From Gemmatimonas sp. (GTDB lineage Bacteria > Gemmatimonadota > Gemmatimonadetes > Gemmatimonadales > Gemmatimonadaceae), in assembly GCF_021298855.1 (NCBI RefSeq), contig NZ_JAJTHI010000016.1, forward strand, positions 1 to 64,000: a stretch of DNA of 64,000 nt, written 5' to 3'. Below, in pieces: positions 7,707 to 36,976 of the stretch. Under the pieces are notes generated by a model that saw nothing but the letters and a program-made list of their open reading frames with translations, was not told the origin of the DNA and made no database searches. The translations under genes and the position numbers were made by a program. Numbering within the stretch: position 1 is the stretch's first letter; the number at the start of each line of letters is the position of its first letter.

Positions 7707-7746
7707 TCTGCGGGCGGCAACCGCAACGCGGGTGCATCTTCTGCGC

Positions 7747-9492
7747 ATGCGTCCCCTTTGCTCCGCCCTGCTCAGCCGCCGCGCATTCCGGCGCCTTCCC
7801 GCCGCGCTGCCCACCGTACGGTCAGCGGTGCGTGCCTCGACATTGGCCTCGATGCTGGTCCTCGCGCCGTCGTCGCGGGCCGCCGCGCAATCGGTCACGC
7901 TCACGCTGCCGGCCGGGAGTAGCGCCGCGCCGGTCACGGGGCGCGCCTTCGTGTTCGTGGCGCGCACCGACCGCGCCGAGCCACGCCTGCAGGCGGGCGC
8001 CCGCCGCACCAGCGAACCGTTCTTCGGGGTGGATGTGGAGCAGCTGGCGCCCGGGCGGAGCGTGCGCCTCGGGGCCGACATACCGGGATTCCCGGTGGCG
8101 TCGATGGGGCAGCTGCCGCCAGGCGAGTACTACGTGCCGGGGCTGCTGCTGCCGTACACGAGGTTTGCGCGCGCCGACGGCCACACCATCTGGGCGCACA
8201 TGGATCAGTGGGAGGGGCAGCGGTTCAACGACGCCCCCGGCTCGTACGTGAGTGCGGTCCGCAAGGTGCGCCTCGATGCGTCCTCGCAACTCGAGCTGCC
8301 GCTCGAGCGCACCCTGCCGCCCGTCCCCAGACTGGCCGATACCGAGTGGGTGCAGCGGTTCCGCATCACCTCCAAGCGCGTGAGTGCCTTCTGGAATCAC
8401 GACATGCCGCTGGGGGCCGTGGTGCTGCTCCCCAAGGGCTACGCGGAGAACACCGGTAAGCGCTACCCGGTGGTGTATACCGTGGGCCACTTCAGCGAGC
8501 GCGCCCCCTTCGGTTTCACCTTCGACGGCTGCGATCGTCCCGAGACACCAACGGCGCGCGCCGCCCGCCTGGCCCGCAGCGCCCGGGAACCAGGGTGTGA
8601 ATTCCAGCAGGCCTGGACGAGTGGCCGCGTGCCGGAGTTCATCGCGGTGTTCATCCAGCATCCCACGCCGTTCTACGACGACAGCTACGTCCTCAACTCC
8701 GCGAACAACGGCCCCTACGGCGACGCCATCACGCAGGAGCTCATCCCCGAAATCGACCGTCGCTATCGCACGATCCCCAGTGCCTACGCACGCATGCTGA
8801 CCGGCGGCTCCACCGGCGGGTGGGATGTCCTGGCGCTGCAGATTCACTATCCGGGCGTGTTCGGGGGTGCCTGGTCGCTGTATCCCGATCAGGTGGACTT
8901 TCGCCATTACCAGCTCGGCAACGTGTACGCCGATGCCAACGCCTACGTGCTGCGTGACAACGCCTGGCTCCCGCCGCGCGAGATTCCCGCCAACCGGTCA
9001 CCGGAGGGACTCACCGAACTCACCATGCGCGAGGAGAACGCCGCCGAGGCGGTGATCGCCAGCAAGGGGCGTTCAGGCGGCCAATGGGACGGCTGGCAGG
9101 CGGCGTGGGCGCCGGTGGGCCCCGATGGCTATCCACAACCGCTCTGGGACAAGGGCACCGGGGTCATCGACCACCGAGTGGCCGAATCGATGCGCGCCAG
9201 AGGCTACGATCTGCGCGACTACCTCGAGCGCCACTGGTCGACCGTGGGGCCGCAGCTGGTGGGCAAGCTGCATGTCGCCGTGGGGGACATGGACAACTAC
9301 TTCCTCAACCTCGCCGTCTACAAGCTCGAAGCGTTTCTCGAGAGCACGAAGGAGCCGGGGAAGGGGCCATACTACGCCGGCCGCTTCGACTACGGCCGCC
9401 CGCTCAAGCCCCACGGCTGGCAGCCGTGGAGCAACCAGGAGCTGCTGCGACTCATGGCCGAGCAGGTCCGGCGCCATGCCCCCCGCCCCTAG
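7747..9492 (+). CDS. Exported esterase, putative-esterase (esterase D-like) family
   Basis: 581-residue alpha/beta hydrolase of the putative-esterase family (Pfam PF00756 type). The long N-terminus has a basic region and hydrophobic stretch ending at SSRAAAQ, near residue 49, consistent with export. The N-terminal 150 residues look like a beta-sandwich; the hydrolase core runs from about 220 and holds the nucleophile motif LTGGSTGGWD. Two histidine-containing C-terminal segments (YLERHWSTVG and KPHGWQPW) could supply the catalytic His, but I cannot assign it. The ATG was chosen over a GTG five codons upstream. It follows the DUF5916 gene closely. Substrate is unknown; sugar esters would fit the CBM-like neighbour, as inference. 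Confidence 0.85.
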   Translation: MRPLCSALLSRRAFRRLPAALPTVRSAVRASTLASMLVLAPSSRAAAQSVTLTLPAGSSAAPVTGRAFVFVARTDRAEPRLQAGARRTSEPFFGVDVEQLAPGRSVRLGADIPGFPVASMGQLPPGEYYVPGLLLPYTRFARADGHTIWAHMDQWEGQRFNDAPGSYVSAVRKVRLDASSQLELPLERTLPPVPRLADTEWVQRFRITSKRVSAFWNHDMPLGAVVLLPKGYAENTGKRYPVVYTVGHFSERAPFGFTFDGCDRPETPTARAARLARSAREPGCEFQQAWTSGRVPEFIAVFIQHPTPFYDDSYVLNSANNGPYGDAITQELIPEIDRRYRTIPSAYARMLTGGSTGGWDVLALQIHYPGVFGGAWSLYPDQVDFRHYQLGNVYADANAYVLRDNAWLPPREIPANRSPEGLTELTMREENAAEAVIASKGRSGGQWDGWQAAWAPVGPDGYPQPLWDKGTGVIDHRVAESMRARGYDLRDYLERHWSTVGPQLVGKLHVAVGDMDNYFLNLAVYKLEAFLESTKEPGKGPYYAGRFDYGRPLKPHGWQPWSNQELLRLMAEQVRRHAPRP

Positions 9493-9609
9493 CCGCACGA
9501 ACGACGGCTGAGGAGGGGGAACCGGTCCGCTGACGCTGGCCGCGGCCACCATGTGGCGATGCGCTCCCTGCCGAGTTCCCGCACGGGACTGGAGAAGCGC
9601 ACCACGATA

Positions 9610-11028
9610 TCAGCTGGCGATCTTCTTCTTCTGCTGGTTGATCTTCTCCAGATACTTCTTGAAGAACTGCTTCTGGATGTCGTTCATGTCGATCTCACGC
9701 CCCTGGATGTACGACTGAAGGATGTTGGTCGTCATGTCCAGCGGCGTCCCGGTGGTGATCACCAGCGTGGCCTCCTTGCCCACCTCGAGGGATCCCACCT
9801 TGTCTGCCACCCCCATGAACTCGGCGGCATTGATGGTCACCGCCTTGAGCGCTTCCTCCTCGGGCAGGCCAAACGCCACGGCCACGCCCGCATCCCACGG
9901 CAGCCGATAGCTGTACAGGGCATTGCCCTCACCGGCGATGGCGAAGCGTACCCCGGCCTTGAAGAGCGCGGCCGGGGTGGCGTAGGCCTCGTCGTAGCCG
10001 TCGTCGCTGCGCGCCGGCGCCGACATGGTCGACGTGAGGATTACCGGCACGTTCTCCGCCTTGAGCCGCGCGGCCACCTGCACCGCGTCACGTCCGCCGC
10101 GAATGACCAGCTTCACCCCTTCCTGCTTGGCCCAGGTGAGGGCGTCGTTGATCTGCGACGCATTCTCGGCTGCCACCACCACCGGCATCTCGCCGTTGAG
10201 CGCGGGAATCATGGCGGCGTAGCGCGAATCGGTGCGCACGGTCTGCCCCGCCGTGATGGCGTCACGATACGCGCGCGCCTCGCCGAAAAAGTTGCGGATC
10301 TCCTCCACCTGCTCGGCGTACGTCTTGGGTGCCGGCTGCGCGCGGCCCCCCATGCCCGGCGGCGGCCCGCCGCCGAACCGCCGCGGCCGGGCGTTGGGGT
10401 CGGGCCAGTTCACGTTGAGTGCGGCCGCGCCCTTCATGCTCATCTCCTCCCACGTCCATCCTTCGAGCGAGATGGCACTGGACAGGCCGGAGATGAGCCC
10501 GCCGCCCGGCGTGGCAAAAGCCACCAGCACCCCCGCATTGCGCGTGGTCCCGATGTGCCGGCTCTCCGCATTCACCGCCACCTCGGCGCGCACGTTCGGG
10601 TTGAAGTCGCCGAGTTCGGTCACGTCGTTGGACACGTCGACGGCACCGATCTCGGAGATGCCCACCGTGCTGTACGCGTCGATCAGTCCGGGATAGATGT
10701 GCTTGCCCGTGTAGTCCACCACCTTCGCGCCACGCGGCACGGCCACCTCAGGACCGCCGATGGCGATGATCTTGCCGCGGTCCATCACGAGGGTGCCATT
10801 GGTGATGACCCCCTTCGTGACGGTGTGAATGGTCGCACCGCGCAGCACCACCGGCTGGCTCTGCGCCGCCGTGGGGATGACGACCTGCGCCTCGGCCAGC
10901 CGGGGCGTGATGACGGTGGCGAGCAGCCCACCCGCGACCAGCGCGGCGGAGAGGGCCGCAACGCGCGCAGCAGTGTACATGGTGTGGGCCCCGGCGTTCT
11001 TCGTGAAGTGTGTCGTCATGGGATGCAT
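9610..11028 (-). CDS. Amidohydrolase-fold protein lacking the HxH motif, exported
   Basis: 472-residue amidohydrolase-superfamily protein (imidazolonepropionase-like group). A signal peptide (core VAALSAALVAGGLLATVI) ends near LAEAQ. The N-terminal sandwich strand GATIHTVTKGVITNGTLVM and the C-terminal block AVTINAAEFMGVADKVGSLE are typical. The metal-binding PGLIDxHxH reads PGLIDAYSTVG, so both histidines are absent, and I see no replacement ligands; catalysis by the usual mechanism is unlikely. GGAGG lies nine bases before the chosen ATG, supporting this start. It begins two bases after the stop of the larger amidohydrolase, so the two should be co-translated and may form one complex. The lysine-rich C-terminus ends QQKKKIAS. 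Confidence 0.87.
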   Translation of the reverse strand: MHPMTTHFTKNAGAHTMYTAARVAALSAALVAGGLLATVITPRLAEAQVVIPTAAQSQPVVLRGATIHTVTKGVITNGTLVMDRGKIIAIGGPEVAVPRGAKVVDYTGKHIYPGLIDAYSTVGISEIGAVDVSNDVTELGDFNPNVRAEVAVNAESRHIGTTRNAGVLVAFATPGGGLISGLSSAISLEGWTWEEMSMKGAAALNVNWPDPNARPRRFGGGPPPGMGGRAQPAPKTYAEQVEEIRNFFGEARAYRDAITAGQTVRTDSRYAAMIPALNGEMPVVVAAENASQINDALTWAKQEGVKLVIRGGRDAVQVAARLKAENVPVILTSTMSAPARSDDGYDEAYATPAALFKAGVRFAIAGEGNALYSYRLPWDAGVAVAFGLPEEEALKAVTINAAEFMGVADKVGSLEVGKEATLVITTGTPLDMTTNILQSYIQGREIDMNDIQKQFFKKYLEKINQQKKKIAS

Positions 11029-11030
11029 GC

Positions 11031-14027
11031 TCAGCGACCTCCCTGACCGCGGCCGCGCGCCGGCGCGCCGCCGGCCGCCGGGGCCTCGGTGGCGCTCGCG
11101 GCGATCACGGCCTGCACCAGCTGCGCCCGCTGCTTCGCCACCTCGTCACGCAGCACCTTGTCCTCGTCGAGCGAGAAGTACTTGCGGCCGTCGACCCACG
11201 TCTGCTCCGCCTTGGTGAACTGCGACAGCGGGTTGCCGTTCCAGATCACGAAGTCGGCATCCTTGCCGGGCTCGAGCGAGCCGATGCGGCCGTCGATCGC
11301 CACCGCCTTGGCCGCGTTGATCGTGACCGTGTGCAGCGCGTCGACCTCGCTGACCCCGCTGCGCAGCAGCTTGCCCGCCTCCCAGTTCATGCGCGTGGAG
11401 ATCTCGTTGTCGTCGGAGTGCAGCGACGTGACCACCCCGGCCTCCAGCAGCAGGCGCGCGTTGTAGCTGGTCGCGTCGTAGGCTTCCATCTTGAATGCGC
11501 CCCAGTCGCTCCACACCACCGCGGCCACCCCCGACTTCTTCAGCTCGTCGGCAATCTTGTACGCTTCCACACCGTGCTGCAGCGTCTGCACCTTGAACCC
11601 GAATTCCTCGGTCAGGCGCATGAGCGCGAGGAACTCGTCGGCGCGATAGCCGTGCGACGACACGAGCAGCTTCCGGTTGAGAATGTCGAGCAACGCCTCC
11701 ATGCGCAGATCCTTGCGCGGGGGAAGGCCGGTCTTCGTCTTCTCCCAGCTCTTCCATTCCTTCTCGTAATCACGCGCGGCCATGAAGTGGTCGCGGATGA
11801 TCTCCTGCACGCCCATGCGCGTGTTGGGATAGCGATTGGGATTGCGCTTGGGGTTCTCGCCCAGCGCGAACTTCACCGTGCGCGGCGCGCCCTGAATCTT
11901 GTATTCGTCGGGGAGCGAGCCCCAACGCGTCTTCACGAACACGTTCTCGCCACCGATGGGGTTGGCGGACCCGTGCTTGATCATGGTGGTGGTGAGGCCA
12001 CCGGCAAGCTGGCGATAGAACCAGATGTTGTTGTGCGTGACCACGTCGCCCATCTGCACTTCGGGGACGATCGCGAACCCGCTCTCGTTGATGTCGGTGA
12101 CGCCGCCATGCGTGTGCGGGTCGATGAGCCCCGGCGTGACGTGCTTGCCGGTGGCGTCGATCACCGTGGCCCCGGCGGGGGCGGTCAGCCCCGTGCCCAC
12201 GCGTACGACCTTGCCCGCCTGCACGAGCAGGTCCGCATTCTCGAGTTTCCCCTGCGGGCCCGACGTCCACACGGTGGCGTTGCGCACCAGCACGGCGGCC
12301 GGCTGCGCTGGCGGTGCCGACCGGCCGTACTCCATCGACGGACGAATGAACGGCAGATCGATCTTCGGCACCTTCACCGCGACGGCGCCGCGCGCGGGCC
12401 CCTGATACGCCTCGGTGCGCGTGCCCTTGTAGTTGGCATCGGTGCCCGTGGGCAGCGACATCCAGCCGAAGAACTCCTCGCCACGGACCGAGCCGGAGAG
12501 CAGCACCGAGCCCTCGAGGCCCAGCTGCTCGCCGTTGAACGTTGCCTCCAGACGGCCCGTCTCGGCGATGATGCGCACGCCGGTGAGGTTCACCGGCCGG
12601 CGGCTCGGCATTTCGATCGTGCCACGGATACGGTTGAGCGGACCCTCGAGGCGCAGCGTGGCGCTGCGGAAGGTGCCCTGATCCTCGGACGCGATCGTCC
12701 ACGTGCCGCGCGGGTCGACCTGCGGGGCCCGGGTGACGCCGTAGCGGGTGCCCTGCACCCACACGTCACGGATGGCGCCTTCCTCCGTGAAGAGATCGCC
12801 CTCGCTCACCACGAGGTTGGCCACCTTGCCCACGGAAATCGTGCCGTGCGTCTTCTCGATCCCGAGGAAGCCCGCCGGGACCGTGGTAAGGGCCGCGAGC
12901 GCCTTGTCGGGCGTGAGGCCGCGCGCCACGGCCACGCGCAGGTTGGGGAAGAACTGATTGAGCGACGACAACCCGTCGGCCGTGATGGCGAATGGGATGG
13001 CATTCGCGGCCAGCTGCGCCGGGTTGGTGGGCGCGAGGTACCAGTGCCGCAGGTCGGCCAGCGACACGTTGCTCGCCGCTTCCGGGTTGGCCACGTTCGG
13101 CGCGTCCGGGAAGTTCAGCGGCACGATCAGCGGCTGGGGGCGTCCCTTGAGCACGTCAACGAGACGGTACTCCTGGCCGCTGCCGCGGAACCACGGCGTG
13201 AGCTTGTACTCGCTCGCGAGCTTGAACGCCCGCAGGTACTCCTCTTCGTTGTTGGTCTGGAAGACCACCTGCTGCTGTCCCTTCACGGCCTTGCCGAGCG
13301 CCGCGAGCGCTTCGCTCGTTTCGGGCGGCAGAATGGAGCGGCCGCTCGTCTCGTAGGCGCCCCACGCGCGGCCGTACCACTCCGCGTCGAGCAGCGTCTG
13401 CTTCATGAGGGCGATCGTCCCCATGCTCGAGTTGGGGTAGGTGCCGCCGAGCGCGAAGGAGCGCGAGAAGCCGATGCTTTGGGCGAGATCAGGGCGCAGC
13501 ACCCGCTCGCGCACACCGGCGTCGCCGAGATGCACGACGGAGGCGGTTCCGCGGAAGAGCCCCTGGCGCGGCACGGCGAGTGCCGCGCCGAAGCCGAGCG
13601 AGCGGAGCGCGGTGCGGCGCGTGGTGTCATCCTTGAGGTTCGCCGTGGTGCTGAACCACGCGCGCACCTGCGGATTCCAGTGCGTGGGGCCAACGTCGCC
13701 CCCCTGCGGCGGGGTGTCGCCGCCGAGGTCAGCGTGCGCGTCGACGAACCCGGGGTACACCGTGAGCCCCTTGAGCTCCCAGACCCGGGCGCCCGCCGGC
13801 GGGGCCATGCCGGCCCCCACCGCCGCCACGACACCATTGCGGATCACGATGGTGGCGTTGTCGAGAACCTGGCCCGGAGCGGTGACCACACGGGCACCGA
13901 CGAGTGCATGGAAGCCGGTCGCGTTGGCGCGCAGGCCGGCGATCGGTTCGGTGCGGGTGGCTTGTTGGGCCTGAAGGGTGCCGCCGGCCATGACGGCCAG
14001 ACTCAACAGGGAACGGACGACTTTCAC
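11031..14027 (-). CDS. Exported double-amidohydrolase protein
   Basis: 998-residue protein with two amidohydrolase-like halves. A GTG start opens the signal peptide (VKVVRSLLSLAVMAGGTLQA). Domain 1 (about 25-480) has VYPGFVDAHADLGGD, where the second His of HxH is Asp. A beta-sandwich of about 110 residues follows. Domain 2 (from about 600) has an intact PGLIDPHTHGG, further His at VSSHGY and LQHGVEAY, and the late Asp region SLHSDDNE, so it is probably catalytic. The superfamily hydrolyses amide, imide or peptide-like bonds; the substrate is unknown. The C-terminus is Ala/Gly/Arg-rich (PARGRGQGGR). It is the first gene of a tight two-gene unit with the HxH-less homologue. Confidence 0.9.
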   Translation of the reverse strand: MKVVRSLLSLAVMAGGTLQAQQATRTEPIAGLRANATGFHALVGARVVTAPGQVLDNATIVIRNGVVAAVGAGMAPPAGARVWELKGLTVYPGFVDAHADLGGDTPPQGGDVGPTHWNPQVRAWFSTTANLKDDTTRRTALRSLGFGAALAVPRQGLFRGTASVVHLGDAGVRERVLRPDLAQSIGFSRSFALGGTYPNSSMGTIALMKQTLLDAEWYGRAWGAYETSGRSILPPETSEALAALGKAVKGQQQVVFQTNNEEEYLRAFKLASEYKLTPWFRGSGQEYRLVDVLKGRPQPLIVPLNFPDAPNVANPEAASNVSLADLRHWYLAPTNPAQLAANAIPFAITADGLSSLNQFFPNLRVAVARGLTPDKALAALTTVPAGFLGIEKTHGTISVGKVANLVVSEGDLFTEEGAIRDVWVQGTRYGVTRAPQVDPRGTWTIASEDQGTFRSATLRLEGPLNRIRGTIEMPSRRPVNLTGVRIIAETGRLEATFNGEQLGLEGSVLLSGSVRGEEFFGWMSLPTGTDANYKGTRTEAYQGPARGAVAVKVPKIDLPFIRPSMEYGRSAPPAQPAAVLVRNATVWTSGPQGKLENADLLVQAGKVVRVGTGLTAPAGATVIDATGKHVTPGLIDPHTHGGVTDINESGFAIVPEVQMGDVVTHNNIWFYRQLAGGLTTTMIKHGSANPIGGENVFVKTRWGSLPDEYKIQGAPRTVKFALGENPKRNPNRYPNTRMGVQEIIRDHFMAARDYEKEWKSWEKTKTGLPPRKDLRMEALLDILNRKLLVSSHGYRADEFLALMRLTEEFGFKVQTLQHGVEAYKIADELKKSGVAAVVWSDWGAFKMEAYDATSYNARLLLEAGVVTSLHSDDNEISTRMNWEAGKLLRSGVSEVDALHTVTINAAKAVAIDGRIGSLEPGKDADFVIWNGNPLSQFTKAEQTWVDGRKYFSLDEDKVLRDEVAKQRAQLVQAVIAASATEAPAAGGAPARGRGQGGR

Positions 14028-14236
14028 GAAGGACTCCCGTGACGGCGCCGGCAGGGGAACGCCGTCGGTGGCGGAGGAATGGTGAGGCAGCACGGCGACG
14101 GGCGCGCGGACGGCGCACGGGCACCGGGCCGGTGGCCAACTATGCGGCCGGGGGCGCTCGATATCAAACGGCTGAGGGGGGCCAGACGTTCGGGGCCACC
14201 GCTCATGAGTGCGGGTGATCGGCGCCGGGGGGCGCG

Positions 14237-15664
14237 TCAGGCGGCGCGGTCGGCCAGGAACGTGCCCACGTCGAGCGTCTCGACCGGCGGCGGGACGCTC
14301 TCGACGATGTGGAGGCGATACGCCCCACGCCCATCTCGGGTGCTCGTATCGATCTCGTCCCCGGCGCGCTCGAACCGGTCGTTGACCGGCACGATGACCG
14401 GATGCAGCAGGTCGCCCTCGGTGATGCGGACCACGACCCCGAGCCGCTCGTCGCTGGTGCGGACCAGCGAACCGAGGGGAAAGAACGTGATCGCGTTCAC
14501 GAACGTCTTGACCAGCGCGGCGTTGAGGGTGTCGCCAGCGAGTCGGGCGAGCAGCAGGCACGCCTGCTCGGGCGGGGCGGGTTTGCGGTACGTGCGCACA
14601 CCCGTGACGGCTTCGTAGATGTCGGCCACCGACAGAAGCTGGCTCATGGGGTGCGGGATGACCCCGTCACCCAGGTTCGGGTACCCGCCGCCCCGAACGG
14701 TTCGGTGATGCTCGAGCGCAAGGCGCGGCGTGAGCGGATGCAATCCCGGCGTGCGCAGGAGGAACTCGGCGCCCTGCGCGGGATGGCCCTCGACGACGCG
14801 CCGTTCGCGGTCGTCCAACGTGCCCGGCTTCCGCAGGATATCGAGCGGAACGTGCGACTTTCCGATGTCATGCAGGAGCGCCGCCTCGACGAGGGCGCCC
14901 AGCAACTCCTCACGGAGACCGATCTGCCGTCCGAGCAGCAGGCTGAGCATTGCCACATTCACCGAGTGAAGCCACGTCTGGTTGTCGTAGTTCTTCACGG
15001 CCAGGATCTGGCTGAGCACGGCGTTGCTGCGCGAGACCTTGTACATCAGCAGCTGGACGAAGTCCCGCACGGTGCTGGCCCTGAGCTCACCGCCCGCGGC
15101 GATCTCGTCGAAGGTCGCCTTGGACATCATGATCGATTCCGCATAGTCCGGATCGAGCACCCCGGATGGCGCGTCGGGCCACTCCGGCACCACCTGGCGC
15201 GTGTCGAGCGGTACCAGCCGGCTCAGGCGAACATGCCGTATTCCACGCACGGCGAGTTGGGCCCCGACCGTGCCTTCGACCGGATGGTACTGCATGTCCC
15301 AGAGCAGTTGGGCCAGCGCGCGCAATTCCTCGTGGTCCACGCCCTCACCGAGCTGAATGCTCTGGACGCCGAGGGCCAGAAGGTCCTCGATGACCTGACC
15401 ACCGGTCTCCAGGTCCAGCGCCCCCGAGGCCCCGTCGACGGTGACCTCCCCTTGGATGATATCGATGCTGACGGCCGACTGGCGGCGCAGCTGCGCCTGT
15501 ACCGTCTCGTGGAGCACCCGCAGCCGCTCCTCGACGAGCGGGTGACCGTGAGGATACAGCCCGATCAGACGACGCACGGTACCGATGCCCCGCAGGATGG
15601 CCACTGGCCCGGCGGAGGGCGCCGGGTCGCCGAATGGGGTGGACGGGTGAGCGGGAAGGGTCAT
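14237..15664 (-). CDS. HD-GYP domain protein (probable cyclic-di-GMP phosphodiesterase)
   Basis: 475-residue cytoplasmic protein. HD-GYP domains degrade cyclic di-GMP. The domain spans about residues 205-390: His233 in WLHSVNVA, HDIGK at 265-269, EGHP near 292, ALEHH near 317-320 and GGGYP at 325-329, so the metal ligands and GYP motif are present. Residues 20-145 form a helical/beta domain (YPHGHPLVEERLRVLHETV) that resembles the N-terminus of the next upstream gene. The last 80 residues form a small beta-domain often found after HD-GYP. It begins ten bases after the HEAT-like gene, so the pair is an operon. No receiver or membrane segment is visible. Confidence 0.93.
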   Translation of the reverse strand: MTLPAHPSTPFGDPAPSAGPVAILRGIGTVRRLIGLYPHGHPLVEERLRVLHETVQAQLRRQSAVSIDIIQGEVTVDGASGALDLETGGQVIEDLLALGVQSIQLGEGVDHEELRALAQLLWDMQYHPVEGTVGAQLAVRGIRHVRLSRLVPLDTRQVVPEWPDAPSGVLDPDYAESIMMSKATFDEIAAGGELRASTVRDFVQLLMYKVSRSNAVLSQILAVKNYDNQTWLHSVNVAMLSLLLGRQIGLREELLGALVEAALLHDIGKSHVPLDILRKPGTLDDRERRVVEGHPAQGAEFLLRTPGLHPLTPRLALEHHRTVRGGGYPNLGDGVIPHPMSQLLSVADIYEAVTGVRTYRKPAPPEQACLLLARLAGDTLNAALVKTFVNAITFFPLGSLVRTSDERLGVVVRITEGDLLHPVIVPVNDRFERAGDEIDTSTRDGRGAYRLHIVESVPPPVETLDVGTFLADRAA

Positions 15665-15674
15665 CGATGGGGGG

Positions 15675-17960
15675 TCACGCCTGCAGCAGCTGCGCGGCGC
15701 TGCGGGCCACGCGAACCAGCGCCGGGTTCCAGAGGTGAAAGCGCAGACTCGTCAGCGCTCGGAGCGTCGGCGCCACATCGGCGGGGACGGGACGGCCGAC
15801 GCAGTCGAGCAACTGCTGTGCCAGACCGGGATGTCGCCGCACGAAGTCCATGTTGGCGAGCAGGTCGTGCACCCGCGGCTGCAACTGGGCTGGTGCGAAG
15901 CGCAGCAGCGCCTCCGCGGCTGCGGGCCGGGTCGACGCGGGACCGGCCACCAGGTGGCGCGCCACCGTGATCGCTGCCGCCGAGCTCCCCATCGTGGCCA
16001 GCGCGTGCAGCGCTTCCCGGACGGCCGCGTCGTCGCCCGAGGCCAGTACGGCGGCGACCTTGCTGCCATAGGCCGCCCCCGCGCGACCGAGGAAACGGAT
16101 GATCGCGAGGCGGACCTCCCCCGTCGCCGAGGTCAGCTGCGGGGCCAGCATGGGGGCAACCGTGGAGGCATGGTCGCCCAACCCGGCCAATAGCGCGCGG
16201 GCGCGATCGGCCATGACGGGATCATGGAGGCCGGCAACGATGGCGGTGATCAGGTGGGCCCCGAACCCGTCGAGGAGCGCGTCAGTGGTGGCGGGGGAAA
16301 GGCGCTCGTGCGTGTCCTGCCGTGCCAGCAGGGCAAGGCGTTCGGCTGTCCAGAAGCTGCACCACGCCGCGGCAATCGCCGCGGTCACCTCCGGACGCGA
16401 TGGCGGTTCGGTTTCGGCGAGGGTACGCAGGTGGCGACCCCAATGCGCAACCGTCATCCATCGCCCCTGCTGGCCAAGCGTGTCCAGCAGCACGTCCGCC
16501 TGCGCCAGCAACCGTGCCGCCGAGGTGGGATCGGATTCGACCCGCAACAGGTGGGAGAGGGTCCCGAGGTGCGTGTCGGTCTCATCCATGGCCGCAGTGT
16601 CGCGCACGAGGCGCTGCGTCTCCTCGATCGCCGCGTCCGTGAGCGCGAGATCGAACGCGACATAGTCGGCGAAGTGGCGTTGGCCGGAGGGATCTACTGC
16701 GATCAGTTTTCGAGCAAACCGCTCTATGGCGGCGTCGGGCCCATAGGCCGCCGTGTCGGTCGCCAGCCGTCGCCCCAGGCGATCGCGGAGCAACGGGTCG
16801 AGTGCCTCGCGCCGTTCCGAGGGGAGGGCCAGGCGATCCACGGCCGTGGCCAGCAGCTCGGGGGCCGCCGTCTCGAGGTCAAGCAGCAGACACAGCGCGT
16901 CGGCCAGCGCCACATCGGGGAAGCTGGCGAGCACGGAACCCTCCAGCGCGCCGTCGAGGAGACCGGTGAGCACCGTCTTTCGCAGCAGCGCGATCCGGCG
17001 GCTCTCGTCGAGGTCGAGCAGCGACCGGGCCAGTTTGGAGAAGAGCAGCTCCCCGATCTGCGGATCGAAGCTGGCGAACAGCGCCGCCATCTCGGCGAAC
17101 CGCTCGGCAAAGGCAGTCTGTCGATCAATGGCCGTTGCTGGCTCCTCGTCCGTGAGGCGCGTCAAGGCCACGGCCAGTTCCACCGGATCACCGAGCAGCA
17201 ACGCCAGGTCGGCCAGTGTCACGGCGTCGCAGGTCACGGAGGGATCGACGCGCACCCATCCCCGCTGCGGGGGGTAGCGATGCCGCACCGGTCCGCCGTT
17301 GGCCAACTGCTCCCGTCGCTGGCGTTGCGCGGCGTCGACCAGTCGCCGGACCACTGCCGGTGGAGTGCCGGCATCGATCACCACCGGGCGATGCGACGCG
17401 CGCATGGTGATCCCTTCGCCCCGCTGCCCACTCCAGCCGCTCGCGACGCCGCCCGCGGGCGGTGCGGCCTCATTGAGCCCTCCCAACTCGGCACAGAAGC
17501 GGCTCAACTCGGCGGGTGTGGTCGAACACGCGATCTCCACGGTGTCCACCTGGGCGCGGTGCAGGCGGCGGGCGAGATCGACCTCGCCCCCGTTCAACGT
17601 GATGGTGACCCCCTGATCGATCGTCACCCACGAGGCACCGACGCGGAACGCCAGGGGCTCGCTACGGGGGAGCCGGCCGAGAGCGGCATGCACCGCGGCG
17701 ATCGCCGCCACGCAAATCGGGTGGCTCGCCGGCAGGGTCTGGTAGCACCGGACGGCCTTCGCAAGCAGCATCAGGCACTCCCGGATGGCCTCCACCTCGG
17801 CCGGGGGCCGGTCGCTTCCCGGTGCTGCCGTTATCGGCGGCCGTCCGCCGTCGCTCGCCGCGTTGGTGGCGCCGCTGGCCGTACCGATGGCCGTACCGAT
17901 GGCCGCAACCGACGACTCGGTTCGACGCGACCATTGGGCAGAGGAGGAGGGCGCAATCAC
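15675..17960 (-). CDS. HEAT-repeat-like cytoplasmic protein, partner of the HD-GYP protein
   Basis: 761-residue protein from a GTG start, with no signal peptide. Residues 1-55 are low complexity (AIGTAIGTASG, from a 12-bp tandem duplication). Residues about 55-160 (LLAKAVRCYQTLPASHPICV onward) parallel the N-terminus of the HD-GYP protein in order and motif, suggesting a shared sensing or docking domain. The rest is alpha-helical with HEAT-like periodicity; the clearest repeats lie over residues 590-700 (LAIIRFLGRAG, AVREALHALATMGSSAAAI, AAEALLRFAP). It probably scaffolds or controls the HD-GYP protein encoded ten bases downstream. No enzymatic motif was found and no established function is known to me. 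Confidence 0.8.
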   Translation of the reverse strand: MIAPSSSAQWSRRTESSVAAIGTAIGTASGATNAASDGGRPPITAAPGSDRPPAEVEAIRECLMLLAKAVRCYQTLPASHPICVAAIAAVHAALGRLPRSEPLAFRVGASWVTIDQGVTITLNGGEVDLARRLHRAQVDTVEIACSTTPAELSRFCAELGGLNEAAPPAGGVASGWSGQRGEGITMRASHRPVVIDAGTPPAVVRRLVDAAQRQRREQLANGGPVRHRYPPQRGWVRVDPSVTCDAVTLADLALLLGDPVELAVALTRLTDEEPATAIDRQTAFAERFAEMAALFASFDPQIGELLFSKLARSLLDLDESRRIALLRKTVLTGLLDGALEGSVLASFPDVALADALCLLLDLETAAPELLATAVDRLALPSERREALDPLLRDRLGRRLATDTAAYGPDAAIERFARKLIAVDPSGQRHFADYVAFDLALTDAAIEETQRLVRDTAAMDETDTHLGTLSHLLRVESDPTSAARLLAQADVLLDTLGQQGRWMTVAHWGRHLRTLAETEPPSRPEVTAAIAAAWCSFWTAERLALLARQDTHERLSPATTDALLDGFGAHLITAIVAGLHDPVMADRARALLAGLGDHASTVAPMLAPQLTSATGEVRLAIIRFLGRAGAAYGSKVAAVLASGDDAAVREALHALATMGSSAAAITVARHLVAGPASTRPAAAEALLRFAPAQLQPRVHDLLANMDFVRRHPGLAQQLLDCVGRPVPADVAPTLRALTSLRFHLWNPALVRVARSAAQLLQA

Positions 17961-30206: not shown

Positions 30207-31044
30207 GGCTGTCGGTCTGCGCCGTGGCCCCCATGAGCAGCAGCCCCCGATAGCCGCGCGAAATGCGGTCCCGCAGCGTGGCGGCATTGGCGGTCATCAT
30301 GCTGGGCATCCCGGCCTTCTGCGCCACCTCACGCACCCGCTGACAGGCCGCCTCCGCGTCGGGCGCCTTGTCGCGACCGCCCATGGCCATGGTGAGGCTG
30401 CCAATGCCGCACGACAGCAGGCTGTAGCCGGGCACGGCCGCCATGGCTTCCATCTCCGAGACGGCGCCGGGATCCTCGATCATGAGCATCGCCACCACGG
30501 TGCCCGACGGATTGGCCGGTGACCACACATTGGCGCCCGCCTCCTTGAAAAACCCGGCCGCCAGGCGCGCTTCGGCCGCCGTGCGCACATGGGGAATGAC
30601 CACCCCGTCGGCGCCGGCCGCCAGAATGGCCTTCACCCGCGCCCGCGTGCTGTCGGCGCCAGCCGCCTCAATGGTGGGAATGCGCACCAGCAGAGTGGGA
30701 CGTGCTCCGGCGGGGTGCCGGGCCAATCCGGCCACCATGTGCTTCACGGCGGTCATGTCGAACTGTCCCTCGAGATTGAGGAACAGGTAGTCGAGCAGCG
30801 GGTTGGCGCCCAGGGTGTGCGCCCCCTGTTCGGTGTACAGCGGCGGCAGCCGGTTGCCGGCCGCGTCGGTGGCGTTGGGCGCGCGTTCGCTGGGCACGAA
30901 AATGCCGAACGCCGACCCGCCCTGTTTCCAGAGCGGCAGGGCGGCGGTGCGCGTGGGCTGCGCGTGGAGGGCGGTGGGCGATGCCCCCGCGCCCAACAGG
31001 ACGAACAGGGCGGCGGCCGCCGCGGAGCGTGCGTGAGCGATCAT
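30169..31044 (-). CDS. Exported HpcH/HpaI aldolase/citrate-lyase-like protein
   Basis: 291-residue TIM-barrel protein of the HpcH/HpaI class II aldolase family. The usual cytoplasmic enzyme cleaves hydroxy-keto acids with a divalent metal. Here a signal peptide (MIAHARSAAAAALFVLLGAG, site near LHAQ) suggests export. Family marks are LLVRIPTIEAAG, GADGVVIPHVRTA, AMLMIEDPGAV with the metal Glu, and GIGSLTMAMGG. In the last motif the usual Asp of GxxDL is Ser, so metal binding is doubtful. It begins with a four-base overlap (ATGA) with the end of sseA, so it is translated from the same mRNA. The role is unknown. Confidence 0.85.
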   Translation of the reverse strand: MIAHARSAAAAALFVLLGAGASPTALHAQPTRTAALPLWKQGGSAFGIFVPSERAPNATDAAGNRLPPLYTEQGAHTLGANPLLDYLFLNLEGQFDMTAVKHMVAGLARHPAGARPTLLVRIPTIEAAGADSTRARVKAILAAGADGVVIPHVRTAAEARLAAGFFKEAGANVWSPANPSGTVVAMLMIEDPGAVSEMEAMAAVPGYSLLSCGIGSLTMAMGGRDKAPDAEAACQRVREVAQKAGMPSMMTANAATLRDRISRGYRGLLLMGATAQTDSLIRVGRELVGRR

Positions 31045-31895
31045 GGTCCGGTCTCCACCGGCGTATCAGGTTGGCTGCCCCACTCGGTCCAGCTGCCGTC
31101 GTACAGCGCCGTGTGCGAGGCCCCCACCACGTCGAGGCCAAGCAGGACCGCGCAGGCGGTTATGCCGGTGCCGCAACTCGCGGTAATGGGCGCCTCGAGA
31201 TTCACACCAGCCTGCGCGAAGGTGTCGCGCAGCGCCGCGGGCGATTTCATGGTACCGTCGGCGTTCACCAGGCTGGCATAGTGCACATTCCGGGCGCCGG
31301 GCATGTGCCCACCGCGCACCCCGGCGCGAGGTTCCGCTTCGGTACCCGTAAAGCGCCCGGCCGACCGGGCATCCACCACCTGCGCGTCACGCGCGGCGAT
31401 CAGGGCGCGCATGGCCGTGAGATCGCGCCAGCGGGTGCGGTCGAAGCGGGGGGTAAAGGTGGCGGGCGGATAGTGTCCGGGGGCGGTGGCAACCGGGCGC
31501 CCCTCGCGCTGCCAGGCCACCAACCCGCCATCGAGCACCGCCACCTGCGCCTGCCCCATGGTGCGCAGCATCCACCAGAGACGCGGTGCGCTGAAGTTCT
31601 GCCCCGAACCATCATACACGATCACCGCGTGCTCGTCGCCGATGCCCAGCGCCCCCAATCGTGCCGCCAGCACCTCCGGCGCCGGGAGGGTGTGCGGAAA
31701 CGGGGCGGTCTCGTCGGCCAGCAGGTCGAGGTCGGCAAACACCGCGCCCGGGATATGCGCCGCCTTGTACTCGAGCCGGCCGTTGCGCCCCATGGCGGGC
31801 AGGTACCAGCTGGCGTCAATAAGACGCAGCGCTGGGCGATCGAAATGCTCGGCGAGCCAACTCGTGCTGACGAGCGGTGAGGGAAGGCGCAGCAC
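31041..31895 (-). CDS. sseA: 3-mercaptopyruvate/thiosulfate sulfurtransferase
   Basis: 284-residue tandem rhodanese. The N-terminal structural domain contains LIDASWYLP, HIPGAVFADLDLL and VIVYDGSG, and the catalytic C-terminal domain has VVDARSAGRFTG, RGGHMPGARNV and the active-site loop CGTGITAC. This loop is close to the mercaptopyruvate form (CGSGVTAC) of SseA rather than the rhodanese CRKGVTA form. It transfers sulfur from 3-mercaptopyruvate to a thiophile. No export signal is seen. It heads a two-gene unit with the exported aldolase-like gene. Its promoter faces the inverted repeats in the gap to the barrel-like gene. Confidence 0.93.
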   Translation of the reverse strand: MLRLPSPLVSTSWLAEHFDRPALRLIDASWYLPAMGRNGRLEYKAAHIPGAVFADLDLLADETAPFPHTLPAPEVLAARLGALGIGDEHAVIVYDGSGQNFSAPRLWWMLRTMGQAQVAVLDGGLVAWQREGRPVATAPGHYPPATFTPRFDRTRWRDLTAMRALIAARDAQVVDARSAGRFTGTEAEPRAGVRGGHMPGARNVHYASLVNADGTMKSPAALRDTFAQAGVNLEAPITASCGTGITACAVLLGLDVVGASHTALYDGSWTEWGSQPDTPVETGP

Positions 31896-32059: not shown

Positions 32060-32845
32060 ATGCCCTTCGCTCCCCGCAACCCCCGCCGCGTCCCCCTGAT
32101 CGTGGCGACGCTGCTCACCATACCGTTTGCCCGCGGTGCTGCCCAGTCCCTGATCGTGGGCATTCCCAATGCCGAAGCCACCCCGAAAGGCGCGTGGTTC
32201 TTCACGCATGAAAGCCAGATCGAGCGCGGAAAGCGCAATGCCTGGAATACCTTTCAGTTCCTTACCTACGGCGCGGGACACCTGGGCAAGAGGCTGCTTC
32301 CTGGGGGATTCGACACCGAGATCGCCCTGTCGTTCGTCAACTTCGGTCGCCCGGCCACCGGCAATCGCACCATCGCGGCGGGCTTCAAGTCGGTCTACGA
32401 GCTCCCCTCCGGACGGGGGAAGGCGTGGCAGGTGCGCGGCACCGTGGGCGCCCTCGTTCCGGTCTCGCTCGATGGCGGCGGCGCCGGCAGCTGGATCTTC
32501 TCGTCGGGCAGTGTGCGACTGCCCCAGCTCCAGACACGCCTGACCGCTGGCCCCACCTACGGCACCCCGCAGCTGTTCGGCAAGGAAAAGCTGGGCATGA
32601 TGGCGGGCATCGAGCAACCGCTGGGAGGAGTGTTTCGCCGCCGCGTGAGCCTGGTGGCCGACTGGTACTCGGGGCGGCACGATCTGGCGGCGGCAATTCC
32701 CGCCATCCAGTTCAATTTGCCCCGCGAATGGATCTTCATTACGGGGTACAAGCTCCCCAACCGCGGTGCGGCCACGGAGCGCGCGCTCGTGCTCGAGGTT
32801 GCCGGCATTCTGGCCCGGCCCCGCGCGGCTCCCGGCGCGCACTGA
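32060..32845 (+). CDS. Outer-membrane beta-barrel-like protein, unknown function
   Basis: 261-residue exported protein. The signal peptide MPFAPRNPRRVPLIVATLLT ends near GAAQ. After it, residues 30-250 form alternating hydrophobic/polar strands with turn-rich Gly, Asn and Pro (FDTEIALSFVNFGRP, TIAAGFKSVYELPSG, RVSLVADWYSGRHD), as in small outer-membrane barrels. There is no terminal aromatic, since the sequence ends ARPRAAPGAH. No family was recognised. It is divergent from sseA across a region with two inverted repeats. The reductase gene starts 45 bp later and may be co-transcribed. Confidence 0.65.
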   Translation: MPFAPRNPRRVPLIVATLLTIPFARGAAQSLIVGIPNAEATPKGAWFFTHESQIERGKRNAWNTFQFLTYGAGHLGKRLLPGGFDTEIALSFVNFGRPATGNRTIAAGFKSVYELPSGRGKAWQVRGTVGALVPVSLDGGGAGSWIFSSGSVRLPQLQTRLTAGPTYGTPQLFGKEKLGMMAGIEQPLGGVFRRRVSLVADWYSGRHDLAAAIPAIQFNLPREWIFITGYKLPNRGAATERALVLEVAGILARPRAAPGAH

Positions 32846-32890: not shown

Positions 32891-33853
32891 ATGTCCCGTC
32901 GAGTCCTCCTGTTGGGTGCCACTGGTACGATCGGTCGGGCCACGGCGCGGGCGCTGGTGCGCCGCGGTCACGAGGTGGTGTGCGTCGTGCGGCCAAAGCG
33001 GCGCGCCGTGCCGGACATTCCGGGCACCATGGTACGCACCGGCGATGTGACCAGCCCCACCAGCCTGGCGCGCGAGGTCTTTCGCGGGGAGCGATTCGAT
33101 GCGGTCGTCAGCTGTCTCGCGTCGCGCACCGGTGGGCCCGTCGACGCGTGGGCCGTTGACCACCAGGCGCATCTGCACGTGCTCGAGGCCGCGAAGACGG
33201 CCGGCGTGACGCACTTCGTGCTGCTGTCGGCCATCTGTGTGCAGAAACCGCTCCTCGTGTTTCAGCACGCCAAGCTGGCCTTCGAAGCGGCGCTCATGGG
33301 GTCGGGGCTCACCTGGTCGATCGTGCGCCCCACCGCCTTCTTCAAAAGCCTCTCGGGGCAGGTGAAGCGCGTGCAGCAGGGCAAGCCCTTCCTGCTCTTC
33401 GACGATGGCACGCGCACCGCCTGCAAGCCCATCAGCGACGACGACGTGGCCGAGTATCTCGCCACCTGCCTCAGCGATGCGTCGCGCGCGAACCGCATTC
33501 TGCCCATCGGCGGACCAGGGCCGGCCATCACCCTGCGCGAACAGGGCGAACTGCTCTTCCGCGTGGCCGGCAAGCCACCGCGCTTCACCAGCGTGCCGGT
33601 GACGCTCTTCGATGTGATTGCCGGGGTGCTTGGCGCGCTGGGCGCCGTGATTCCGCCGCTCCGCGACAAGGCCGAGTTTGCGCGCATCGGCCGCTACTAC
33701 GCCACCGAATCCATGCTGCTGTGGGATCCGGTGGCACAGCGCTACGATGCCGACGCCACGCCGTCGTTCGGCACTGACACCCTCGAGGCGCACTACGCGC
33801 GCCTGCTGCGCGGCGAGGTGGCCGACGACCGCGGCGAGCACGCGGTGTTCTGA
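32891..33853 (+). CDS. bciA: BciA-type divinyl chlorophyllide 8-vinyl reductase
   Basis: 320-residue atypical SDR that reduces the C8-vinyl group of divinyl (proto)chlorophyllide with NADPH, a step of (bacterio)chlorophyll synthesis. The dinucleotide loop is LLGATGTIGRAT. The diagnostic blocks of BciA from memory are all present in order: IVRPTAFFKSLSGQV, GTRTACKPISDDD, LPIGGPGPAIT followed by REQGEL, RIGRYYATESML and ATPSFGTDTLEAHY. Length matches BciA. No other bch, puf or crt gene lies in the window, so this could be a stand-alone copy outside a photosynthesis cluster. A non-photosynthetic relative would be the alternative. Its base composition looks like its neighbours'. Confidence 0.88.
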   Translation: MSRRVLLLGATGTIGRATARALVRRGHEVVCVVRPKRRAVPDIPGTMVRTGDVTSPTSLAREVFRGERFDAVVSCLASRTGGPVDAWAVDHQAHLHVLEAAKTAGVTHFVLLSAICVQKPLLVFQHAKLAFEAALMGSGLTWSIVRPTAFFKSLSGQVKRVQQGKPFLLFDDGTRTACKPISDDDVAEYLATCLSDASRANRILPIGGPGPAITLREQGELLFRVAGKPPRFTSVPVTLFDVIAGVLGALGAVIPPLRDKAEFARIGRYYATESMLLWDPVAQRYDADATPSFGTDTLEAHYARLLRGEVADDRGEHAVF

Positions 33854-33870: not shown

Positions 33871-35478
33871 TCAGCCCACCGTCGCCATGCGGAAGCGCCG
33901 ACTCGCCTGCTCGTAGGCGTGGGCCAAGGCAAACAGCTTCGCGTCGCTGCCGGGCAGTCCCACGAAACTCAGGTTGCCCGCCGGCAGCCCGTCGGCCCCA
34001 TAGCCGGCCGGCACCGAGATCTCCGGCAGTCCCAGCCAGTTGCCGTAGCCCAGCGGCGTGCGCACGTCGGGCCACGGGGACGTGGCTTCGGGGGCCTTGA
34101 AGGGCATGGTGGGATAGACCATGGCGTCGATGCGCCGTCCGGCCATGCTGCGGGCCAGTGCAGCCACAACGGTCTCGCGTGACGCGAGAAAGCTCACCGA
34201 GGCCGCATCGCGCTCGTAGGGCACCTTCGTGAGCGGTGCCAAGTCGCTCCACTCCGTGGGCAGCACGTCGTAAAAGGCGCGGTACGCGGCGAGCCCGCGC
34301 TGCATGGCGATCGTGGCGTTCACCCCCTGCCGCTCGAAGTAGCGCCGCAGCGCGTTGGCGGTGGCGCCCGGCGCATTGGCGTTGGGGGGCACATCGCCCC
34401 GTGCGGTGGCCGCCGCCGCGAACTGCTCGCGATAGTTGGTGCGATCCACGGCCGGCACGAACGCCTCGACAATGCCACCGGCCTTCGCGCAGTCGGCCAG
34501 GGCGTTGTCGAACACCGCAAGACACTCGGCCGTCATTTGCGCCCGCGGGGCATGCACCTCCACCACGCCAAGCCGCGCCCCGCGCAGCGCGTTGGCATCG
34601 AGCGTACCCAGCGTGCCGCGCTGCCAGCGCGCCCGCAGCGACAGCCCATCGCCGCCCTCGTGGCCTGCCAGCACATCGAGCATGAGGGCGGCATCGGCCA
34701 CCGTACGGGCCAGCGGCCCATGCGTGTCGAGCACCGGCCAGGTGGGAATGACACCCGTCCGCGGCACCAGCCCGAAGGTGGGCTTCACCCCCACCACACC
34801 GGTGAACTGCGCCGGAATGCGATTGGAGCCGCCGTCGTCGGTGCCCAGCGCGCAGAACGCCATGCCGCAGGCCACGGCCACGGCCGAGCCGGCACTCGAC
34901 CCGCCGGGGGTGATGCGCCCGGCGGCATCATGCGGGTTGCGCACCTGTCCGGTCGCGCTGGCGGTGCCGTTGCCGCGGTAGGCGAAGTCGTCGGCGGCCG
35001 TCTTGCCCAGCAGCACGGCGCCGGCCGCGCGCAGCCGCTCCACTTCAATGGCATCACGCGCTACGGCGGTGGGAAACAGCCGCACCCACTCGGCGCTCGA
35101 CGCCGTCGTGGCCAGCCCCCGCATATCGTAGATCGACTTGGCAAAGAGCGGCACGCCGTCGAGCGGGCCCCGCAGCGCGCGCCGCCGCAGGCGGTCGTCG
35201 GAGGCGCGCGCTTCGGCCAGCGCCGTCTCGGCGAGCAGGTCGATGGCGCGGAGCTGTGCGCCGAGTGTGCGGCAGCGCGCCAGTGCCAGCGTGGTGACCT
35301 CCACGGCGGAGTACTCGCCACGCAACCGTCCCGCCTGGTACAGGGCAATGGTTCCACCCAGCGGATCGTCGGCGGGCGCGGAGCGCTCGGCGGCAGGCCG
35401 CCACGCCCCGCGGGCGGCGAATGGCACGGCAAAGAGGGCGCTGAGTTGAGCCAGCGCGTCACGACGCGACAGAGACAT
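33871..35478 (-). CDS. Amidase signature family protein with Tat-like signal
   Basis: 535-residue amidase. The N-terminus MSLSRRDALAQLSALFAVPF has a twin-arginine motif (SRRDAL) followed by a modest hydrophobic run, so folded export by Tat is likely. The triad is complete: Lys114 in LFAKSIYD, Ser194 in PGGSSAGS and Ser218 in DDGGSNRIPA, 24 residues apart as in the family. The substrate is unknown. It begins ten bases after the lipase stop. GAGGAG in the last lipase codons may serve as its ribosome site, although the 13-base spacing is long. It differs from the window-edge amidase in its export route. Confidence 0.92.
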   Translation of the reverse strand: MSLSRRDALAQLSALFAVPFAARGAWRPAAERSAPADDPLGGTIALYQAGRLRGEYSAVEVTTLALARCRTLGAQLRAIDLLAETALAEARASDDRLRRRALRGPLDGVPLFAKSIYDMRGLATTASSAEWVRLFPTAVARDAIEVERLRAAGAVLLGKTAADDFAYRGNGTASATGQVRNPHDAAGRITPGGSSAGSAVAVACGMAFCALGTDDGGSNRIPAQFTGVVGVKPTFGLVPRTGVIPTWPVLDTHGPLARTVADAALMLDVLAGHEGGDGLSLRARWQRGTLGTLDANALRGARLGVVEVHAPRAQMTAECLAVFDNALADCAKAGGIVEAFVPAVDRTNYREQFAAAATARGDVPPNANAPGATANALRRYFERQGVNATIAMQRGLAAYRAFYDVLPTEWSDLAPLTKVPYERDAASVSFLASRETVVAALARSMAGRRIDAMVYPTMPFKAPEATSPWPDVRTPLGYGNWLGLPEISVPAGYGADGLPAGNLSFVGLPGSDAKLFALAHAYEQASRRFRMATVG

Positions 35479-35488
35479 GCGGGGAAAA

Positions 35489-36976
35489 CTACTCCTCGTT
35501 CCAGGGGCGCGTTTCGAGGCGCAGCACGGCGCGGATCCCCGGCTGCGTGTCCTGCACCACCGGCACGGCAAAGGTCCAGCTGCCGGGGATCGGCGACGCC
35601 GCCACGGCGTCGTGCTGCACCGCATTGGGCGCCGCGCTGTCCCACCCATAGCGCAGCGACCAGCGGCCATCGTCGCCGAAGGTGGCCTCCAGGTTCACCT
35701 TGTCGCGGAAGAGGAATCCGCCGTCGTAGTGATCGCGCGTCCAGAACGGCGTGCCGTCGATCTGGTACTCCGGCACCTGTACGCCTACGTCGAGGCTGAA
35801 GCCCAGCGTGGGACGGGCCAGGTCCACCCGGGCCTGATTGGAGAGGAAGGCGCTGGCCAGATGCAGTGGCCGCCGTCCCTTGACGTGGCGGTCGTAATCC
35901 ACGAGGACCGCCGACCCTTCGTTGGTGGTCCGGCGGTGCAGGTCCCACCGCGCGCCGCGTACCCGGGCGATCACGTCAATGTGATAGTCGGCGCGAATGG
36001 CGTGCCCCGCATCCTTCTCGCGCTGCACCGCTGCCGGCAACGTGAGCGTCTCGATGTCGAGAAAGACGTCCATGCGCACGTTGCCAAAGAGAAAGCGGCG
36101 CAGGTTCTGGTAGCCGTCCTCGGAATTGACGATGCCATAGTGCCCCGAGTGCGAGCGGTGCACGAAGGCGCGCGGGGCATCGGCCACATAGGCGTTGGGG
36201 ATGCGCACGAGGCCATCGCTCATGGGCCCCACCGCGAGGCGCGCGAGGCCGTAATCGTCGTGGTTGGTGCCCACGAGGCTGAAGAAGCGTTCCTCGGGAA
36301 AGGCCCCGTCGAGCGAGTTGACCGGTGTGTCGGGCGCGAGTCGCAGGTACTCGCGCATGCGCCCCTCGTTGAATACGTCCGACTGATTGATGCCGAACCC
36401 CGGCACATTGCCGATCCCGCGCAGGTCGATGCCGCCGTGCGGCGTGGCATAGGTGAACACCTTGTCGATGCGCGCGTCGTGGCGTGACAGCTGCTGCAGC
36501 AGACAGCGGCAGATGAGCCCCCCCATCGAGTGCGCCACCAGATACACGCGAAAGGCCGACGATCGGGCGCCGTGCCGCGCGCGGTCCCCGGGGACGTAGC
36601 GATCGTGCAGCTGGTCGATGAGTTCGAGCAGCCCCCGCGCATAGGTCTCGATGTCGTGGCGTGTGCCGCTGCCCAGCTCCTTCGACGCGTCCTCGTAGTA
36701 GCGATAGATCCACACGGCACGTGCCTTGGGCACGGCATGGGCCGGCAGTTCGGTGCCGTCCACGAAGCTGTCGCCGTACCCCTCGTCCTTCATGAGCCGC
36801 ACGAGGGGCGACTCGAAGACGTGGCGCACGACGCGCCGCGGGTACTGCTGCCGCAGCTTTGTGGAGCCCACGTTGAAGCCCATGTACGGATCGGCCACCG
36901 TGTGCTCCACCTCGCCGCTGGTCATGGCGTAGCCACGCACGTAGATGATGGGGAAGTACGGACGCTCCAACGGCAT
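35489..36976 (-). CDS. Alpha/beta hydrolase, lipase/esterase-like
   Basis: 495-residue hydrolase. The core is YFPIIYVRGYAM at the start, the nucleophile in YLVAHSMGGLICR (GxSxG type AHSMGG), and TYATPHGGIDLRGIGNVPG, a motif common in triacylglycerol-lipase-like and PGAP1-like enzymes. The catalytic His is probably in HRSHSGHYGIVNS. The last 170 residues are beta-rich (DVIARVRGARWDLHRR, RPTLGFSLDVGVQVPEYQ), perhaps a lipid- or protein-binding sandwich. No signal peptide is seen. A strong GAGGAG lies seven bases before the chosen ATG. The amidase gene follows after ten bases. Confidence 0.85.
   Translation of the reverse strand: MPLERPYFPIIYVRGYAMTSGEVEHTVADPYMGFNVGSTKLRQQYPRRVVRHVFESPLVRLMKDEGYGDSFVDGTELPAHAVPKARAVWIYRYYEDASKELGSGTRHDIETYARGLLELIDQLHDRYVPGDRARHGARSSAFRVYLVAHSMGGLICRCLLQQLSRHDARIDKVFTYATPHGGIDLRGIGNVPGFGINQSDVFNEGRMREYLRLAPDTPVNSLDGAFPEERFFSLVGTNHDDYGLARLAVGPMSDGLVRIPNAYVADAPRAFVHRSHSGHYGIVNSEDGYQNLRRFLFGNVRMDVFLDIETLTLPAAVQREKDAGHAIRADYHIDVIARVRGARWDLHRRTTNEGSAVLVDYDRHVKGRRPLHLASAFLSNQARVDLARPTLGFSLDVGVQVPEYQIDGTPFWTRDHYDGGFLFRDKVNLEATFGDDGRWSLRYGWDSAAPNAVQHDAVAASPIPGSWTFAVPVVQDTQPGIRAVLRLETRPWNEE

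Follow-up and report, generated by a model that had tools for sequence, protein, structure and literature searches.

The window, the whole 64,000-nucleotide stretch of Gemmatimonas DNA analyzed here (G000:C73:1-64000, in the 4.09-Mb assembly G000), carries bciA, judged by its sequence a genuine, intact gene and an ordinary member of a known family. By its genes the organism is a phototroph, and BciA is the only dedicated 8-vinyl reductase recognized in its genome, encoded outside the photosynthesis gene cluster (PGC). A working BciA very probably acts on the PGC pathway from this outside position and in this lineage replaces the in-cluster BciB; going by gene content across the phylum, it seems to substitute for an unrelated enzyme that other members have kept in the cluster.

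Table 1. Features in the window and in related Gemmatimonadota loci.
Feature	Location	Strand	Basis
bciA, NADPH-dependent (proto)chlorophyllide 8-vinyl reductase, intact, 320 aa	window, 32891..33853	+	homology, tree, peptides, model
Upstream neighbor, 261 aa, no Pfam match, not a photosynthesis gene	window, 32060..32845	+	context only
Rhodanese-domain protein	window, 31041..31895	-	Pfam; context only
Amidase-signature protein, 540-aa reading, start codon unsettled	window, 33871..35493	-	Pfam; context only
BciB-like gene annotated 'frhB', bchP-2-G operon (probable bciB)	L219, 6318-7553; also L061-L070	-	HCAR match
Eroded BciB remnant in the BciA-bearing genome G202 (C70), open 218-aa frame	L214, 15549-16202	+	PF04432, 29.6 bits
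Decayed PGC of G122	L212 (G122:C240:30000-49999), about 5500-16300	n/a	colinear match to PGC

The bciA reading frame opens with ATG, and its product matched the Pfam families NAD_binding_10 (PF13460) with 95.5 bits (cut-off, 27.2) and NmrA with 48.4 bits, both scores clearly exceeding the cut-off. Scanning NCBIfam gave no match to a BciA model, and the top hits were generic SDR models far below cut-off, so this collection was unable to settle the identity. Generic SDR matches only were obtained from PHROGs, and no BciA was found in the viral_contigs scan. The earlier note had recognized the protein by diagnostic blocks at BciA length, and this identification was borne out. Residues 9 to 16 (GATGTIGR) form the N-terminal GxTGxIG NAD(P)H motif, and every block of the family was found (VVSCLASRTG, LLSAICVQKP, FQxAKLxFE, SIVRPTAFFKS, ACKPIS, PIGGPG, and RIGRYYATESM). 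The protein kept 57/57 positions that are invariant across 97 BciA homologues and deviated at only two of 95 near-invariant columns (G171D and L175R). Full-length proteins with 62 to 80% identity were encoded at 80 named loci, including those of Gemmatimonas, Azohydromonas, Rhodobacter sp. SW2, Bradyrhizobium BTAi1, Rhodovulum, Imhoffiella, and Limnohabitans, and reaction-center genes were also present in 36 of the 40 genomes behind the named loci. For comparison with an enzyme of tested activity, we used peptides, not the full sequence, of BciA from Acaryochloris marina, shown to be functional by complementation (PMC4836224). Seven of its tryptic peptides aligned in order on the window protein; the three long ones were identical at 9/12, 9/12, and 12/16 residues, values reached by 0/2000 shuffles, and an NmrA-like paralogue stretch from the same genome did not match the long peptides. 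An AlphaFold model showed a confident atypical SDR fold (pLDDT, 91.1), for which Foldseek returned NDUFA9 and SimC7 as the nearest folds (TM, 0.66 to 0.74); a sequence search of the PDB found no match to a solved BciA. The assignment is supported by homology, invariant blocks, phylogenetic placement, and tight co-occurrence with reaction-center genes.

In a 97-row tree, the window protein paired with that of the sister genome G078 (support, 99) among Gemmatimonadota BciA, beside proteobacterial BciA. Since this tree holds no cyanobacterial, plant, or green-sulfur rows and no non-BciA outgroup, it is by itself no test of the outer limit of the family. An initial tree had placed genus g18 (G281 and G134) together with L113 inside the Proteobacteria, implying a second acquisition of BciA. 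This idea was dropped because the approximately unbiased (AU) test found a better tree that unites all Gemmatimonadota; a single Gemmatimonadota clade was not rejected (p-AU, 0.883). As a separate observation, L113 (from G312), G134, and G281 grouped together by both PufM and BciA and stood away from the remaining Gemmatimonadaceae. This hints that the PGC of these three genomes has a history of its own; the AU test did not support the BciA part.

Gemmatimonas serves as the standard example of how phototrophy can be acquired through transfer of one gene cluster. The immediate surroundings of bciA show nothing of such a cluster: at a threshold of E<=1e-8, none of the PGC proteins of G078 had a match anywhere in the window. 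The isolation from bch and puf genes described in the earlier note is thus real at this scale, and so is a composition like that of the neighbors (GC content of 0.693 versus 0.691 for the window; codon-usage rank of 18/35). The region had also been called otherwise chemotrophic, which applies locally and fails genome-wide, because the PGC lies on other contigs. Both pufLM and bchXYZ were found there: contig C58 carries pufL and pufM surrounded by bchX, bchY, bchZ, bchO, pufC, puhB, and puhE, contig C6 carries bchN/B, bchH, and bchL, and bchG/bchP and ppsR are present as well, with the frames of the photosynthesis genes open. Gene for gene, this PGC is mostly 91 to 100% identical to that of G078, with a few genes at 83 to 90%; NCBIfam named ppsR, bchG, bchP, hemA, acsF, and bchM in the latter. 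The BciA proteins of both genomes are 90% identical, and the same-strand gene 45 bp upstream of bciA is conserved at the same place in G078 (92%). The amidase gene adjoins bciA in G078, G039, G249, and G269, and the neighborhood of rhodanese, BciA, amidase, and argG is kept in G078, G039, and G269; in G249 the rhodanese gene lies more distant.

Phototrophs of the phylum that lack BciA mostly carry a different candidate for the same step. A gene of the BciB family (PF04432) was detected in 10 of 13 BciA-less phototrophs; it lies within the PGC, flanked by a PucC/LhaA-like gene and bchP. It keeps the N-terminal cysteine cluster CTDCG..CG..C. HCAR is a known relative of BciB, and the copy in G086 scored 246 bits against plant HCAR (5dqr, residues 18 to 400) versus at most 61 bits against F420-hydrogenase (FrhB-type) chains. 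Judging from these sequence scores, the in-cluster 'frhB' of BciA-less Gemmatimonadota is probably bciB and not an F420 hydrogenase subunit. A precedent exists in cyanobacteria, where genes annotated nmrA and frhB were shown to be bciA and bciB (A. marina; PMC4836224). In the 16 BciA-bearing phototrophs searched, no intact PF04432 gene was found, and an eroded stretch, devoid of the N-terminal cysteine cluster and other blocks, occurred in G202 only. The slot is empty in G078, G000, and G039, where the PucC-like gene abuts or overlaps bchP; in the other BciA-bearing genomes that were read, the spacing between these two is too small for a gene. Weak BciB matches within BciA-bearing clusters were rejected as an artifact, since some BciB queries ran upstream in frame into the PucC-like region.

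Mutual exclusion of BciA and BciB was significant with genomes counted as independent (Fisher's exact test, p = 1.4e-5). Along the PufM tree, genomes switch between presence and absence of BciA three times or more; a tree-aware test, with only two to three independent pairs, all opposite or undecided, was not significant. Within genus g2 on this tree, G128 (BciA present, slot empty) is nested among BciB-bearing relatives. Three phototrophs had neither gene: G092, whose assembly is without bchH and bchN/B; G288, a congener of the BciA-bearing G166, with an empty BciB slot; and G244, in which the absence of both seems real. At the corresponding locus of G244 (L221, G244:C1:2220000-2239999), there is also no PucC/LhaA-like gene between bchG and bchP. 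We found no description of the BciA/BciB alternation in Gemmatimonadota in the open-license literature; it seems to be undescribed for the phylum, and priority is uncertain.

By homology, BciA would bind NADPH and reduce the C8-vinyl group of 8-vinyl (proto)chlorophyllide to ethyl, with a likely preference for 8-vinyl chlorophyllide a as in the tested enzymes (PMC4214422, PMC4432870). Its product would then enter COR (BchXYZ) and end as 8-ethyl BChl a, a route predicted from the genes. In the lineage of G000, BciA would thereby take the place of BciB, an unrelated iron-sulfur flavoprotein reductase; the remnant in G202 and the nested position of G128 suggest that the replacement ran from BciB to BciA. 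However, the a-type COR of Rhodobacter carries out 8-vinyl reduction itself, and 8-ethyl BChl is still made when bciA is deleted, as in the Rhodobacter sphaeroides mutant (PMC4214422, PMC4432870; R. sphaeroides, PMC4214422). By analogy, BciA may be partly redundant, which weakens the term replacement, and its loss might show no phenotype because COR performs the same reduction. Taken further, COR could do most of the 8-vinyl reduction, with BciA as a minor scavenger or backup; either enzyme would then be dispensable, and the BciA/BciB pattern would reflect lineage drift. The presence of bchXYZ in G000 fits this account, as does G244, which lacks both enzymes and may depend on COR at this step. 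We nevertheless consider it rather unlikely, given that BciA is intact and has kept the residues conserved throughout the family almost completely, and that the informative phototrophs of the phylum, with few exceptions, carry one of the two enzymes and lack the other.

The distribution of BciA bears on its origin. Among 298 Gemmatimonadota genomes, with BciA called at E<=1e-40 and a reaction center at PF00124 scores above cut-off, BciA was detected in 23 and reaction-center genes in 34, with both in 21. BciA thus occurred in 21/34 genomes with a reaction center versus 2/264 without (Fisher's exact test, p = 2e-21, genomes counted as independent). Where the genome is a single contig, the two lie far apart (0.22 versus 1.59 Mb for BciA and reaction-center genes in G039, 2.38 versus 2.09 Mb in G073, and 2.42 versus 0.19 Mb in G128). 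In this phylum, BciA tracks phototrophy, not the cluster. The suggestion in the earlier note that bciA is an original gene kept outside an acquired cluster therefore stands for its place and not for its origin: BciA follows the reaction center across the phylum, and in G019 and G067, both phototrophy-free, the amidase gene occurs with rhodanese or argG nearby, whereas the 20-kb stretch contains no BciA or recognizable remnant of it. It is likewise very improbable that the protein is an ancestral Gemmatimonadota SDR, BciA-like and with another substrate, that predates phototrophy in the phylum. Host-like composition and codon usage and the two BciA-bearing genomes without a reaction center (G122 and G166) would agree with such an origin, but the gene is missing from 262/264 genomes without a reaction center, including the phototrophy-free Gemmatimonas G019, G067, and G111 (none at E<=1e-40), its product shares 62 to 80% identity with BciA homologues from purple-type phototrophs, and one of the two exceptions contains a ruined PGC.

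That exception, G122 (MAG GL140_1_metabinner_42), contains BciA and gave no match to a reaction center, BchY, BchN, or BchB. Its ruined cluster comprises, in order, hemA, bchP, a PucC-like gene, bchG, ppsR, the next gene, the end of bchH, bchL, bchM, and acsF, followed by a 90-residue LhaA-like stub, malQ, a 96-residue puhE stub, and the usual flank. Of bchH only the last 194 residues persist, and pufLM and bchXYZ are gone. BciA is intact, with a single change among the 95 near-invariant columns (V319I). The best reading of these sequences seems to be that G122 lost phototrophy yet kept BciA. In G166 (G166:C17; L213 and L227), a MAG 95% complete in 20 contigs, BciA was present and the reaction center, BchY/N/B, BchH, and BchL were not found; its congener G288 carries a PGC. 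Faulty assembly or binning may lie behind the gene absences in both genomes. For the window itself, the further proposal that bciA has survived as a remnant of phototrophy since lost by the strain has next to no probability: it describes the relative G122, with intact BciA and ruined PGC, and is refuted for G000 by the PGC found there with open frames (pufLM, bchXYZ, bchNBHL, and others).

Beyond the proposed replacement of BciB by BciA in the lineage of G000, it is conceivable, and we propose it tentatively, that BciA repeatedly displaced the in-cluster BciB as phototrophy spread, moved the step to an unlinked locus, and outlives the PGC (in G122 and perhaps G166). If so, where BciA outlives the cluster, phototrophy would have been lost only very recently or else the enzyme would have a second use. 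To judge from the 8-vinyl reductase step, the pathway seems to extend beyond the transferred cluster, with one enzyme encoded elsewhere and an in-cluster alternative in other members. A reading is also offered for the puzzling 'frhB' of group 1 clusters, along with an annotation rule to be tested: NAD(P)H-binding or NmrA genes as bciA, and frhB in bchP-2-G as bciB. Two findings seem most worth keeping: the alternation of BciA with an in-cluster BciB across the phylum, and the decayed PGC of G122, a genome seemingly caught after the loss of phototrophy.

Of the known systems, the window gene most resembles BciA of R. sphaeroides and its relatives, represented here by the sequences of Rhodobacter sp. 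CZR27 (L073, 68%) and Rhodobacter sp. SW2 (L119, 68%). Full-length homology, all invariant blocks, the NAD(P)H Rossmann fold, and a position away from photosynthesis genes are shared; in Rhodobacter sp. CZR27, the gene resides on a replicon of 860 kb, with sox and ben genes around it. Host phylum, genomic neighbors, and the pairing with a missing in-cluster BciB differ. A bciA-like gene (63%), annotated only as NAD(P)H-binding protein, was also seen on a mobilizable 311-kb plasmid of Agrobacterium sp. MA01 (L072), beside sugar-transport genes. NmrA-like, SimC7, and NDUFA9 atypical SDRs share the fold of BciA but, at 16 to 24% identity, are not BciA by sequence. The BciB/HCAR-type reductase (PF04432, PF04422; 5dqr), proposed to perform the same 8-vinyl reduction as the alternative within the phylum, differs from BciA in its unrelated fold and cofactors and in its location inside the PGC, in the PucC-like/bchP slot of BciA-less Gemmatimonadota. 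Phototrophic group 1 Gemmatimonadota have an 'frhB' in their bchP-2-G operon (PMC8547001), which has the same position and belongs to the same family as the BciB found here; that paper discussed it via F420 metabolism, whereas our scores place it far closer to HCAR/BciB than to FrhB.
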